Virus record (IMG/VR): IMGVR_UViG_3300034522_000110
Coordinates: 1-33,205 of that record
Reading direction: 5' to 3' (one strand)
Origin: a virus
DNA: 33,205 nt
Part shown: in pieces, positions 11,986 to 26,802 of the stretch
How the letters are laid out: each line of letters starts with the position of its first letter
Position numbering within the stretch: position 1 is the stretch's first letter
Program-made: the position numbers and the translations under genes
Notes under the pieces: generated by a model
Seen by the model: only the letters and a program-made list of their open reading frames with translations
Databases searched by the model: none
What the model was told of the DNA's origin: nothing

Positions 11986-12741
11986 ATGATAGATCGCTCA
12001 TTATATAAATATAATTTCACTGAAACTAACACCCCAGACTGGATGTGCCCCACATGCAAAAAAGGGATTCTGCGTATCGTTGAAAAGTCCTTTAATAAGC
12101 AGGAAACGCGAGAATCTCGACAAGCACATAGTCACCCTGAATGGGAGCCCTGCTTCACAACTTACATTTATTCATGCCTACTTCAATGCAACAACGAACG
12201 CTGTCAGGACATTGTTGCCAATACAGGCGAAGGAAGTGCTGACATAGATGGTTTCTATAATGGACAAGGACAACCAGATCAGGAGTGGATAGATCACTTC
12301 CAACCAACATTTTTTGAGCCGCCGCTTGCAATCATTGACATCCCAGCAAATTGCCCTGCTGAGGTTGCAGAACCACTACAAGAGTCGTTTCGTCTATTTT
12401 TCTGCTCGCCAGCATCTGCAGGCAACAATGTCAGAATGGCTATGGAGTCCCTCTTAACTCAACTTGGCGTACCCACTCACAACCCCAAACGTCTAACTCT
12501 CCAAGGTCGCCTGAATCTCCTTCCAGCGGAACATTCCGAATTTACCCCCCTGTTTGAAGCCATTAGACTCTTTGGCAACGATGGCAGCCATCCAGACAGC
12601 AAGATCACTCGCCATGATGTAATGGATGCTTACGACCTCATAGAACACGTACTGCAAGTGCTTTATAAACCTGCTCCCAAACTACCCACAGACATTGTGA
12701 AAAAAATGGCTGAAAGGTTTGATCCGAAGTCAGGTTGCTAG
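11986..12741 (+). CDS. DUF4145-like protein with an N-terminal zinc ribbon; cargo (moron) gene
   Basis: This is the only convincing plus-strand gene. It encodes 251 residues from ATG 11986, with AGGA four bases upstream. Cys21-x2-Cys24 and Cys68-x4-Cys73 form a zinc-ribbon-like N-terminal part. The C-terminal half (about 130-235) resembles the DUF4145 domain, with FCSPASAGNNVRMAMESLL, then RLNLLP and LFGNDGSHP, ending in a helix that includes DVMDAYDLIEHVLQVLY. DUF4145 proteins often occur alone or fused to nuclease and restriction-type domains in defence regions, but their biochemical role is not settled. The gene is less GC-rich than its neighbours, faces the opposite way, and is insulated by a terminator downstream. 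It is therefore an inserted accessory gene, probably expressed in the lysogen. Confidence 0.85.
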   Translation: MIDRSLYKYNFTETNTPDWMCPTCKKGILRIVEKSFNKQETRESRQAHSHPEWEPCFTTYIYSCLLQCNNERCQDIVANTGEGSADIDGFYNGQGQPDQEWIDHFQPTFFEPPLAIIDIPANCPAEVAEPLQESFRLFFCSPASAGNNVRMAMESLLTQLGVPTHNPKRLTLQGRLNLLPAEHSEFTPLFEAIRLFGNDGSHPDSKITRHDVMDAYDLIEHVLQVLYKPAPKLPTDIVKKMAERFDPKSGC

Positions 12742-24181: not shown

Positions 24182-24476
24182 GACAGGCTTCCTTCTGTAG
24201 AGGTGGGGTAAGACGGGCACGGGCCCGCAGGCGATCCAGCTCGCCCACCGACCGCCAGCCCTGGGCAAACAGGGATTGGCGAGTGGCGTGATGGCTGTAG
24301 AGCGGGATGGCCTCCAGATCCGCACCGGCCAGGGCGGCCTTGAGATGGGCGCGGCGCCCATCCTTAAAGCAGGCGAGGTAACGGGGGTTCTTGAGTTCGG
24401 GGATGCCGAAATAGCCAGCGGCCTGGATCCCCTGCAACGCCTTGCGGCGCTTGTTGATGAGGCTGGGTTTGCTCAT
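24174..24476 (-). CDS. Hypothetical lysis-region protein
   Basis: A 100-residue basic protein from ATG 24476, overlapping the endolysin stop as ATGA. It begins MSKPSLINKRRKALQGIQAA and contains AGYFGIPELKNPRYLACFKDG and a helical end with SVGELDRLRARARL. No membrane segment or signal is visible, so it is not a spanin or holin. The function is unknown. Coupling on both sides places it inside the lysis cluster. Confidence 0.72.
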   Translation of the reverse strand: MSKPSLINKRRKALQGIQAAGYFGIPELKNPRYLACFKDGRRAHLKAALAGADLEAIPLYSHHATRQSLFAQGWRSVGELDRLRARARLTPPLQKEACHA

Positions 24477-25057
24477 GCCCCCTCCCCGAACCGGGTAGAA
24501 AGCAGGTAGCTCTGCAGGCGCAGCAGGCGGTTGATCCAGCCATGGGCATTGGCCCACTGGCTCGGGTCTTTGCGCACGATGTTCAGCATGAAGCCGGCGC
24601 GGATCTCAAGCAGCGCGAGCAGCAGGGCCCGACCACCGTCCCGCCCCGTCTTGGCGGCCAGCACCCGCAAGGTTTGCGAGCCCAGCACCCCATCGACCAT
24701 GACACCGAGCGCCTGCTGCAACTGGCGCACCGAGCGACCAGGGCCGTGATGCACGGCCCCATCGAACAGGGCGATGGCAATCAGCGGGCAGACGCTATCA
24801 ACCCGATCGCAACGGGCGGGCAGCCAGTAGTTCGCTCGGTAAAACAACTCTGCATGGGCAGGGGTTGCATCCCCGACGGCAATATCCGGCCGGCCATCGC
24901 GATCGAGATCGATCATGCCGTCTTTCTTGCCGTCGGCGGCATCGGCCATGCCGAACTTGGTGTGGCCGCCACGGTCGGCCGGGTGGTTGACCTCGCCCCC
25001 TTCCACATCGGGACGGAGCAACCAGGCAAGCGCTATGGGATAGGTATCAGGCAACAT
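24473..25057 (-). CDS. Endolysin, GH108-type muramidase
   Basis: A 194-residue protein from ATG 25057. Residues 17-37 contain DVEGGEVNHPADRGGHTKFG, the catalytic Glu-Gly-Gly motif and downstream block of glycoside hydrolase family 108, with Glu19 as the probable catalytic acid. A calcium-loop-like DLDRDGRPD insert follows at 50-58. Residues of about 80-175 match the family's C-terminal peptidoglycan-binding part (FDGAVHHGPGRSVRQLQQALG, VDGVLGSQTL). There is no signal peptide, so release depends on a holin. The ribosome binding site GAGGGG lies in one arm of a strong hairpin, suggesting controlled translation. Confidence 0.93.
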   Translation of the reverse strand: MLPDTYPIALAWLLRPDVEGGEVNHPADRGGHTKFGMADAADGKKDGMIDLDRDGRPDIAVGDATPAHAELFYRANYWLPARCDRVDSVCPLIAIALFDGAVHHGPGRSVRQLQQALGVMVDGVLGSQTLRVLAAKTGRDGGRALLLALLEIRAGFMLNIVRKDPSQWANAHGWINRLLRLQSYLLSTRFGEGA

Positions 25058-25060
25058 AAA

Positions 25061-25104
25061 AGGCCCCTCGATTAACTGCGTTATCGCAGCGTACCGAGGG
25101 GCCT
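25061..25104 (-). promoter_or_regulatory. Hairpin in the endolysin leader covering its ribosome binding site
   Basis: A 10-bp perfect stem (AGGCCCCTCG / CGAGGGGCCT) encloses a second stem (CTGCG / CGCAG). The 3' arm contains the only Shine-Dalgarno (GAGGGG) and is followed by TTT and the endolysin ATG. It could work as an attenuating terminator for upstream transcription, as a translation block, or both. Confidence 0.65.
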
Positions 25105-25112
25105 CTATGGCA

Positions 25113-25130
25113 GGGGTTTATGATGGGTTA
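25113..25130 (-). promoter_or_regulatory. Putative late promoter element, copy 1 (lysis unit)
   Basis: Minus-strand TAACCCATCATAAACCCC lies 55 bases upstream of the endolysin start, at the place of Plys in Mu. It differs by a single base from the copy at 17158. CATAAA would be the -10 hexamer; a transcript would begin just before the leader hairpin. Confidence 0.58.
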
Positions 25131-25133
25131 GAA

Positions 25134-25154
25134 CTATGGCTTCTTGGGTGGCGG
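25134..25154. repeat. 21-bp direct repeat, copy 1
   Basis: The 21 bases covering the last codons of microprotein 3 are identical to 25502-25522, the end of microprotein 1. This marks the shared PPPKKP-stop end and points to recent duplication or strong constraint at DNA level. Confidence 0.85.
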
Positions 25155-25295
25155 TGTGGTTGGGCTTGTTCCGCTACTTTTCGGGGGCTGGTATCCATTT
25201 GTATTAATACCACTTGGTTTCGGCTTTGGTTGATATCCATCCATGCCTATCCCAGAACTTCCTTTTGAGGGAGATTTAGGCTTGTTATTGGACAT
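25134..25295 (-). CDS. GYQP microprotein 3 (53 residues), cargo cassette
   Basis: A 53-residue protein from ATG 25295 to TAG. It is Ser/Pro/Lys-rich and probably disordered. It contains two GYQP motifs (residues 20-23 and 34-37) and ends SPTTPPPKKP. It has no hydrophobic segment. The same GYQP motif and exact PPPKKP ending occur in the two genes directly upstream, and no comparable sequence is seen elsewhere in the window. The gene starts 15 bases after the stop of microprotein 2; the ribosome binding site is weak (GAGA), so coupling is likely. The function is unknown. Confidence 0.72.
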   Translation of the reverse strand: MSNNKPKSPSKGSSGIGMDGYQPKPKPSGINTNGYQPPKSSGTSPTTPPPKKP

Positions 25296-25310
25296 AATTT
25301 AGTCTCGCTT

Positions 25311-25487
25311 TCATGGTTTTTTTGGGGGGGGCTGAGTTGAGCCAGTACTGCTACTTCTTATCGGCTGATATCCGTTTGTTGCAAACTCGCCATCGTCCCT
25401 TGGAATAGGGTGAGTCACGAGTCGATCTGCATCCCTTATGGGGACATGGCACAACTCTGGGTTATCTTTAGCAGGTGGGATTGCCAT
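25311..25487 (-). CDS. GYQP microprotein 2 (58 residues), cargo cassette
   Basis: A 58-residue protein from ATG 25487, with GAGAGG seven bases upstream, ending at TGA 25311. Its first 36 residues differ from the other two and include NPELCHVPIRDADRLVTHP; the final part has TNGYQPIRSSSTG and ends QPPPKKP. The GYQP motif is at residues 39-42. Codon sense is kept although the DNA differs (a run of T and G encodes PPPKK here), so the shared C-terminus is conserved at protein level. It has no membrane segment; the function is unknown. Confidence 0.72.
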   Translation of the reverse strand: MAIPPAKDNPELCHVPIRDADRLVTHPIPRDDGEFATNGYQPIRSSSTGSTQPPPKKP

Positions 25488-25501
25488 ATTTCCCTCTCAA
25501 T

Positions 25502-25522
25502 CTATGGCTTCTTGGGTGGCGG
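25502..25522. repeat. 21-bp direct repeat, copy 2
   Basis: This is identical to 25134-25154 and encodes the last residues and stop of microprotein 1. Confidence 0.85.
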
Positions 25523-25669
25523 GTTTGTGGGGCTACCACCACTACCAGTAGGCTGATAACCACCTTTAACACTAGAAGTTCCAGAACCACCCGAATCCTT
25601 CGGTTGATAACCATGCTTCTCTGTCCCACTAGGGTGACGAGAATTATTGTTACTTGAATTGATTGACAT
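25502..25669 (-). CDS. GYQP microprotein 1 (55 residues), cargo cassette
   Basis: A 55-residue protein from ATG 25669 with GAGGTG upstream, ending at TAG 25502. It opens MSINSSNNNSRHPSG, is Gly/Ser/Asn-rich and likely disordered, has GYQP motifs at residues 20-23 and 37-40, and ends SPTNPPPKKP. It follows the DUF6338-like membrane protein gene after 27 bases and is the first of three related small genes. A good ribosome binding site and family conservation of the C-terminus indicate a real gene. I do not recognise a described family. Confidence 0.75.
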   Translation of the reverse strand: MSINSSNNNSRHPSGTEKHGYQPKDSGGSGTSSVKGGYQPTGSGGSPTNPPPKKP

Positions 25670-25696
25670 AAACACCTCATTTAAATCAAATTGTTT

Positions 25697-26281
25697 CTAA
25701 TGTTTATAAAACTCTAAATATAAAATTTCCGACGACAATATCATAATTCCTTCGGAGCCCATCTTTACTCGATCGAACCCCCCATCTTCATTAATAAACC
25801 ATGACTCTTCTAGATACACTTGCTCAGAGGCTGGTGAACTAGAAACAAATGATTTTTCACTATAAAGGCCTCCAATTCGTTCACCAGACTTAAGCGTTAC
25901 AATGACCCAGTAGCTCTTCTGCAGAGAAAACACGTAATCCCAAGGCTTTTCAATTGGATGTCTTTTAAAATACTTGGTCCTAATTTTCACCCATAAGTAG
26001 GTTATCAATATAGGAGAAACAAATAGCACCAAAATATAAAAAATGACATACAACCACATATGTACATTTTTTAGCTGGCTTGACTCGACCATATACACAA
26101 ATGGCAGCCATATCATATAGTTAATACAACTATATGTAGCTGCATCAATTAACTGTTCTGATGATGTTTTGGGTGCAGCAACTACGACAAATACGTCATA
26201 CGCCTTAATTGCCAGAAATCCAGGCATGACAAAGGCTATAAACATCATTAACTTATTGATTTCAAATAACTCTAGACTCAT
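25697..26281 (-). CDS. DUF6338-like membrane protein, cargo cassette
   Basis: A 194-residue protein from ATG 26281; the ribosome binding site is weak. Three hydrophobic segments at about 12-34, 50-66 and 75-99 anchor it in the membrane. The C-terminal domain (about 120-190) has strand-rich WVIVTLKSGERIGGLYSEKS, then QVYLEESWFINEDGGFDRV and a closing strand, which resembles the DUF6338 pattern and a small SH3/Sm-like barrel. The gene is AT-rich compared with the rest of the phage, a sign of separate origin. It heads the cassette with the three GYQP microproteins between mor and lysis. Superinfection exclusion or defence is a reasonable guess, but there is no direct evidence. Confidence 0.8.
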   Translation of the reverse strand: MSLELFEINKLMMFIAFVMPGFLAIKAYDVFVVVAAPKTSSEQLIDAATYSCINYMIWLPFVYMVESSQLKNVHMWLYVIFYILVLFVSPILITYLWVKIRTKYFKRHPIEKPWDYVFSLQKSYWVIVTLKSGERIGGLYSEKSFVSSSPASEQVYLEESWFINEDGGFDRVKMGSEGIMILSSEILYLEFYKH

Positions 26282-26313
26282 GCCGACACCCAGCTCACTT
26301 AGCGTATCAGCAG

Positions 26314-26348
26314 TGTATACCTCCGATTGCCGTATGGAAACCAGTCAA
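26314..26348 (-). promoter_or_regulatory. Possible middle/cargo promoter after mor
   Basis: In the 89-base gap after mor, the minus strand has TTGACT (26348-26343) and TATACA (26319-26314). The spacer of 23 bases is too long for a normal sigma70 promoter, but a TATACA -10 without a proper -35 would suit a Mor-activated Pm-type promoter. Evidence is weak. Confidence 0.3.
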
Positions 26349-26370
26349 CTCCCCTTCCAAAACCGAGCCT

Positions 26371-26802
26371 TTAACTAAACATATCAAGTTGTGACCTAGA
26401 TCTACTCAGTTGCCGCTGCTCAGCCACCACTGCATAAGTCTGTGGCACCGAGAGACCATGCTTGCGGGCAAGCTGGTCGATGTTGCGGCCGTTGAACTCA
26501 TCCCAGATGGCCCGGTCACGCAAGGCTGCCTTGAGGTGATCACCCGTGGGGATGTAATACGCTCGGCCCCCCATATAGTGGGCCTGCACCAGCGCCAGCT
26601 TGCGAGCCTGGGCCAAGGCCTTATCCGCCGCCATCCCACTGCGCCCCAATTCACAGGCGAGCACATCCACCAGCTCGGCCAGCGCCTTGGGCCATTTGGC
26701 GGTCAGCTCGGCCGCCGGGATCTGATCCAATCGGTCCACCAACTGCCCCAGGGACTCATGGTCCTCGGCGAACAGGTCCAGATTCTCTTGACTGCTATCC
26801 AT
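26371..26802 (-). CDS. mor: Mor-family transcriptional activator
   Basis: A 143-residue protein from ATG 26802, inside the end of gemA (eight-base overlap). The N-terminal part (SLGQLVDRLDQIPAAELTAKWPKALAELVDVLACEL) is the dimerisation region of Mor. A central YMGGRAYYIPTGD strand motif, typical of the Mor/C family, is followed by a C-terminal helix-turn-helix (IDQLARKHGLSVPQTYAVVAEQ). In Mu, Mor activates the middle promoter and the related C activates late promoters. Only this one member is seen here, so it may control late promoters directly. Length is close to Mu Mor (129). Confidence 0.94.
   Translation of the reverse strand: MDSSQENLDLFAEDHESLGQLVDRLDQIPAAELTAKWPKALAELVDVLACELGRSGMAADKALAQARKLALVQAHYMGGRAYYIPTGDHLKAALRDRAIWDEFNGRNIDQLARKHGLSVPQTYAVVAEQRQLSRSRSQLDMFS

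Follow-up and report, generated by a model that had tools for sequence, protein, structure and literature searches.

A DUF6338 membrane protein and proline-rich microproteins with a common tail form a widespread two-part module carried as cargo by a Mu-like phage

We describe a cassette in which a gene for a DUF6338 membrane protein is followed by three tandem genes for microproteins that carry the motif GYQP and end in PPPKKP. The window, that is, the whole 33,205-nucleotide stretch of viral DNA analysed here, belongs to a Mu-like phage as judged by GemA and Mor (Pfam), with transposase-like genes recognised by reading at its right end. The same pairing recurs on plasmids, on chromosomes and in phages, and we have hardly any doubt that it is a real conserved module. 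It is a widespread two-part module that is undescribed as such, having been overlooked by annotation and BLAST because the microproteins are 40-60 aa long, disordered and fast-changing and DUF6338 has no known function. We lean towards reading the cassette as self-contained and mobile, carried as phage cargo and most likely serving anti-phage defence or superinfection exclusion by the mechanism proposed below. The cassette and its surroundings comprise the following features:

26371-26802, minus strand: Mor transcription activator (PF08765, E=7e-27), left border of the cargo slot, a phage gene outside the module
25058-26370, minus strand: cargo slot delimited by mor and the endolysin gene, with contents that vary among sibling phages
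25697-26281, minus strand: DUF6338 gene, 194 aa (Pfam PF19865, E=6e-33)
25502-25669, minus strand: microprotein 1, 55 aa from ATG, MSINSSNNNSRHPSGTEKHGYQPKDSGGSGTSSVKGGYQPTGSGGSPTNPPPKKP
25311-25487, minus strand: microprotein 2, 58 aa, one GYQP, ending QPPPKKP
25134-25295, minus strand: microprotein 3, 53 aa, two GYQP, ending TPPPKKP
25051-25111, minus strand: hairpin followed by TTTT and preceded by the motif TAACCCACCATAAACCC (dG -37.7 kcal/mol, z -7.3)
24473-25057, minus strand: GH108 endolysin (PF05838, E=6e-16; PF09374), right border of the slot, a phage gene outside the module

The first-pass annotation had described, in an AT-richer block after mor, a DUF6338-like gene and three tiny ORFs of 55, 58 and 53 residues, all with GYQP and a PPPKKP end, and this is what we find. 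The block has 36-43% GC compared with ~63% for the phage. The membrane protein scores 114.6 bits against PF19865 (cut-off 26.5) over residues 9-192 and is a clear member of that family, whose Pfam entry, as listed, is silent on function and on microprotein partners. Microprotein 1 shares the DUF6338 reading frame, from which it is separated by one TAG; its ATG is preceded by GAGGTGTTT, and an alternative GTG start at 25675 would give 57 aa. GAGAGGG lies upstream of microprotein 2, and the Shine-Dalgarno sequence is weak in microprotein 3 compared with good ones in the other two. GYQP occurs two, one and two times in microproteins 1, 2 and 3, respectively, and PPPKKP is terminal in 3/3. The microproteins had no match in Pfam, NCBIfam, PADLOC or PHROGs, the PADLOC 2.0 models matched neither DUF6338 nor the microproteins of the cassette, and a tblastn search of phages with microprotein 3 returned nothing. 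A literature search gave no match for PPPKKP, a single match for DUF6338 and, among the matches listed, GYQP only inside unrelated proteins.

The strongest evidence for a module is linkage. The tblastn matches to DUF6338 comprised 20 plasmid records and a single phage record. In most of the neighbourhoods opened, it was directly followed by one to three short ORFs, either unannotated or labelled 'hypothetical', that contain GYxP and have PPKKP-like ends. A profile-guided scan gave 67 bacterial or archaeal and 50 viral DUF6338 loci. A short GYxP ORF followed DUF6338 in 103/115 loci in a first count, and 102/114 DUF6338 genes had such an ORF compared with 53/656 control ORFs drawn from the same loci. 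Reading from stop to stop, the ORF is present in most of the first-count negatives (L014, L022, L041, L058, L064 and L074). When DUF6338 was clustered at 70% identity and the ORF defined more strictly, a proline-rich GYxP microprotein followed in 59/67 clusters, against 14/342 controls (Fisher p=2e-48); recurrent linkage beyond close relatives of the phage had been set beforehand as the test of the system, and the outcome is strongly in its favour. Moreover, 57/59 linked microproteins overlap the DUF6338 stop or start ≤30 nt from it and, judged by position, the two are translationally coupled. One metagenome bin encodes DUF6338, GYQP and NPPPKKP in a single reading frame (L048:3868-4599), which is either a natural fusion or a stop codon lost in metagenome assembly.

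The locus titles span Pseudomonadota, Nitrospirota, Planctomycetota, Chloroflexota, Sumerlaeota, Synergistaceae, Calditrichaeota, Acidobacteria (Acidobacteriota), SAR324, Selenomonadales and one Heimdallarchaeota bin, although individual placements may be wrong because many records are metagenome bins. Within lineages the gene is patchy and accessory: DUF6338 was found in 8/369 Gammaproteobacteria and, by the search used here, in 6/5426 E. coli genomes, there in prophage or satellite regions.

The microproteins were considered as possible chance frames in AT-rich DNA, and this was ruled out by codon evidence and by linkage. Across the window and four relatives, PPPKKP ends 14 of 15 microprotein copies (the remaining one reads NIPPKKP) and is encoded by many codon sets with the residues kept; in microprotein 2 the codons are CCC CCC CCA AAA AAA CCA, unlike both paralogues. 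Microprotein dN/dS was 0.05-0.28 for the computable pairs, many dS values being saturated, and against L079 it was 0.08 for microprotein 1 and 0.09 for microprotein 2. Thus the earlier suggestions that the microproteins are genuine and that their tail is under selection as protein both gained support; to judge from the codons, the tail is kept by protein-level selection. Microprotein 3 is nearly identical at the DNA level in L118 (L118:5591+309), with a dS of 0.06 compared with 2.3 for the DUF6338 pair, and therefore the microproteins are exchanged by recombination.

On average a microprotein has 57 aa, 16.5% proline, 12% large hydrophobic residues and a net charge of +3. The last GYxP starts 18-22 aa before the C-terminus in most copies, and exactly three GYxP are present in 36/57 one-copy loci. 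Tails fall into the types KKP, KKK/KKR, KER and GDE/GEE; mapped onto the DUF6338 tree, these require 17 changes, compared with 45 when shuffled. Such clade-following tails would fit a pairing between DUF6338 and tail, and are also expected if the two are merely inherited together. Ribosome arrest by the GYQP...PPPKKP ending was set aside, given that sister-class products are abundant and that acidic tails replace PPPKKP elsewhere.

A second, divergent class of DUF6338 brings in published data. Among Pseudomonadaceae, DUF6338 scored above the cut-off in 35/398 genomes; seven matches exceeded 120 bits and constitute the GYQP class, and the remainder scored 35-66 bits. In this divergent class, many DUF6338 genes have short proline-rich ORFs directly behind them that lack GYQP and end in APPPPKR, PPPPKK and the like, a pattern that recurs in other genomes. 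In the neighbourhoods inspected, distant Chloroflexota members were mostly without microprotein ORFs. At locus L161, three proline-rich ORFs of 42, 47-51 and 41 aa follow DUF6338, two of them sharing one frame and the third lying in the DUF6338 frame. In P. stutzeri (Pseudomonas stutzeri) ATCC 14405, three abundant proline-rich small proteins, SEP1, SEP2 and SEP5, are encoded in an operon with the DUF6338 gene Pstu14405_RS12030 (PMC10433244). All three were detected by mass spectrometry/direct sequencing, with 44-114 spectra, and were expressed in both growth conditions tested; the authors found them unconserved beyond the species, regarded them as possibly de novo genes and assigned no function (PMC10433244). 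From context, number, sizes and frames we infer that the L161 ORFs are SEP1, SEP5 and SEP2. Since they match, such microproteins are abundantly translated, and the interpretation as de novo genes fails. The P. stutzeri locus resembles the window in the three short proline-rich proteins encoded after DUF6338, and differs in its divergent DUF6338 class and PPPPKK-like tails without GYQP. The claim that no such system had been described stands as far as PADLOC, NCBIfam and PHROGs are concerned for the microproteins, but has to be qualified, as the P. stutzeri instance is in print (PMC10433244). The published interpretation of these genes is thereby corrected, and the mass-spectrometry data gain a family.

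Two other functions have to be weighed against these data. The microproteins could be secreted or antimicrobial proline-rich peptides, with DUF6338 as exporter or immunity protein. This possibility was raised in PMC10433244, and the proteins are indeed proline-rich and on average net positive (+3). However, inspecting the listed sequences by eye revealed no signal peptide, acidic tails (PPGDE) are numerous, the mean net charge is low and tails match the DUF6338 clade, so that we find this very unlikely. A toxin-antitoxin or addiction system is rather unlikely, yet clearly a better candidate. Here, DUF6338 would be a membrane toxin checked by an excess of microproteins, mainly stabilising plasmids and prophages, with any protection from phages secondary. 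It would account for a compact two-part operon on plasmids and prophages and for a small partner that changes fast and is present in one to four copies. It would also agree with P. stutzeri, where the microproteins were abundant while DUF6338 was undetected in an analysis that left out membranes (PMC10433244). Against it, the microproteins come second in order and lack a recognisable DNA-binding domain, several tandem copies with a common tail would be unusual for an antitoxin, and the module is also found on chromosomes and inside defence operons.

The first-pass annotation had proposed a cargo system, and comparison of the same interval in sibling Mu-like phages (L243-L279) bears this out: the slot between mor and the endolysin is exchangeable. 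Its right boundary is fixed at the endolysin start by TAACCCACCATAAACCC and the hairpin, which are kept in nearly all siblings whatever the cargo. The DUF6338 cassette fills the slot in five loci beyond the window (L078, L246, L266, L273 and L277), that of L078 being the same as the window's. In other siblings the cargo is RmrA and a partner gene (L256, 4e-116) or Septu PtuA next to a likely partner (L258, 1e-200); still others have HEPN-like, DUF2971 or DUF4145 genes, a ClpP-like SDH protease or genes of no known role, and in L276 the slot is nearly empty. This argument is one of guilt by association, because many of the sibling cargo genes lack a known function. P2/P4-type prophages have defence slots in which AT-rich cargo is exchanged between fixed phage genes. 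The mor-lysozyme slot is like these in its exchangeable AT-rich cargo, which includes known defence genes, and unlike them in lying in Mu-like phages and, in the window, in holding cargo without a PADLOC match.

The window has another AT-rich insert at 11986-12741 (46% GC at 12001-12600), which lies on the plus strand and is surrounded by phage genes on the minus strand. It encodes a DUF4145 protein (PF13643, 9e-11) that also matches the PD-T7-4 defence model weakly (E 0.003), and is probably a second cargo gene.

The position directly before the endolysin had also suggested lysis control, with the cassette acting for the phage as a holin or spanin-like accessory. This finds no support, and we regard it as most improbable: in siblings the same slot carries unrelated cargo, including Septu and RmrA, and many relatives are encoded on plasmids or chromosomes away from lysis genes, and one occurs in an archaeal bin. 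Judged by context, the most likely role is defence or exclusion.

Neighbourhoods outside the slot point the same way. In L008 the cassette follows an SMODS cyclase and an SLATT gene on the same strand, and in L003, L027 and L014 the same-strand gene before the cassette encodes, respectively, an E2-E1-JAB protein, an MmeI-type restriction protein and a subtilase. A pair of TIR and caspase-like genes adjoins the module in L002, L034 and L037, which we take to resemble caspase-effector Thoeris operons. Of the E. coli prophage or satellite loci, the two that were opened have TIR genes nearby, and SIR2 is present in one. On bacterial contigs, PADLOC matches near DUF6338 (≤2.5 kb) showed no clear enrichment over those far from it (≥5 kb), except for caspases. 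Overall, we regard an anti-phage role of the module as probable.

CBASS effectors of the Cap15 type combine membrane helices with a beta barrel, and L008, with its cyclase and SLATT gene, invites comparison with them. DUF6338, as predicted, shares the helices and barrel, but a CD-NTase (SMODS) was absent from the scanned window neighbours of DUF6338 (Mor, GemA and the GH108 endolysin), and its fold match is Sm-like. Moreover, we know of no microprotein partners in CBASS.

That fold comes from an AlphaFold2 model of DUF6338 (85 rows, mean pLDDT 83.6, pTM 0.59), which agrees with the three-helix membrane protein expected earlier and adds a C-terminal Sm-like barrel. Membrane helices are modelled at residues 2-31, 40-67 and 75-104, followed by a linker helix at 113-119 (HP..PWDYVF) and an Sm/LSm-like beta barrel at 124-193; the predicted model has both the N-terminal helix and the five-stranded bent barrel that characterise the Sm/LSm fold. 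In fold searches with Foldseek and VIA-align the leading matches were Sm, LSm and Hfq chains, with a best Foldseek E of 8e-4; the top Foldseek match was 6am0_D, a chain of the Edc1-Dcp1-Dcp2-Edc3 complex. Residues 110-194 aligned to archaeal Sm (1i5l) with Z up to 8.7 and an rmsd of 2.3 over 73 residues, and to Hfq with Z about 8.0; such middling values are common for small barrels, yet the top matches to the model are consistently Sm-like and cover the domain. A PDB search by sequence profile gave no meaningful match, and a BFVD fold search matched one protein over its full length, an uncharacterised one from Siphoviridae sp. ct96x5. Because DUF6338 and microprotein 1 are in frame across one TAG, a fused read-through model was built with 13 other fused rows. 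Its tail remained disordered and undocked (pLDDT 45-53), which speaks neither for nor against binding, since a single fused chain with few rows makes a weak test.

The barrel raises the alternative that DUF6338 is an LSm protein anchored in the membrane, which would bind RNA or act in regulation together with small cofactors and have no link to phage defence. The predicted fold would suit it, as would the production of the P. stutzeri microproteins in both conditions. However, the distribution noted above for Gammaproteobacteria is patchy, and the module sits in cargo slots and defence operons rather than in housekeeping contexts, making this quite unlikely. Monomeric LSm domains of Edc3 and Lsm14 bind linear motifs rather than RNA. 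DUF6338 would be like these in its predicted LSm fold and in the motif binding proposed here, and unlike them in that they are eukaryotic and soluble, act in mRNA decapping and recognise other motifs.

For defence or exclusion, we propose the following mechanism. One part would be the three-helix inner-membrane DUF6338 protein with its barrel in the cytosol; the other would consist of between one and four disordered, proline-rich microproteins that are produced from the same transcript, presumably in excess over DUF6338. The barrel would act as a short-motif receptor for the GYxP repeats and the free C-terminal tail, and the microprotein, being multivalent, would gather the membrane protein into clusters or hold it in check. 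When a second phage infects, it would disturb the complex, presumably as the trigger, and the membrane part would then block injection or damage the membrane. We give direct binding of the tail by the LSm-like domain an even chance. If the module is defensive, it represents a new architecture, in which an LSm-like receptor in the membrane has multivalent microprotein ligands tagged at their tails; to our knowledge this occurs in no other known system. The small size of the tail peptides and of the LSm domains allows direct binding tests of this central claim.

Lastly, we scanned viral contigs for the tail alone and then for GYQP at a fixed spacing from the tail. GYQP-x(7-11)-PPPKKP or -PPKKP ends small phage proteins of at least six kinds that are otherwise without visible similarity (in loci without DUF6338: L174, L188, L195, L169, L198, L211, L231, L318-L323, L330 and L331). 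With about 22 specified bases per pattern, these matches are not due to chance. The same ending on dissimilar proteins therefore looks like a portable C-terminal signal. DUF6338 was found in 0/13 tail-carrying records tested whole, which may be fragments. Tentatively, the ending may be a portable tag read by DUF6338 or a shared receptor, in which case the free-standing proteins could be decoys against the DUF6338 module, a counter-defence by tail mimicry; ligands of a common host receptor are a possible alternative. The phage proteins with the same tail make the mimicry hypothesis testable. They include Cys-rich proteins of 41-49 aa, some beside an endolysin, a protein of 109-118 aa whose gene is flanked by head-tail connector genes, small membrane proteins with a GYQP...PPPKKP ending and, in L211, a case with longer GYQP-to-tail spacing. 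A 46-aa protein encoded before the terminase reads MASQGFKNPNQFRKQL...GYQPK...PPPKKP, and Providencia phage PSTCR8lys provides a named case of this pre-terminase protein, with the variant GYRP.
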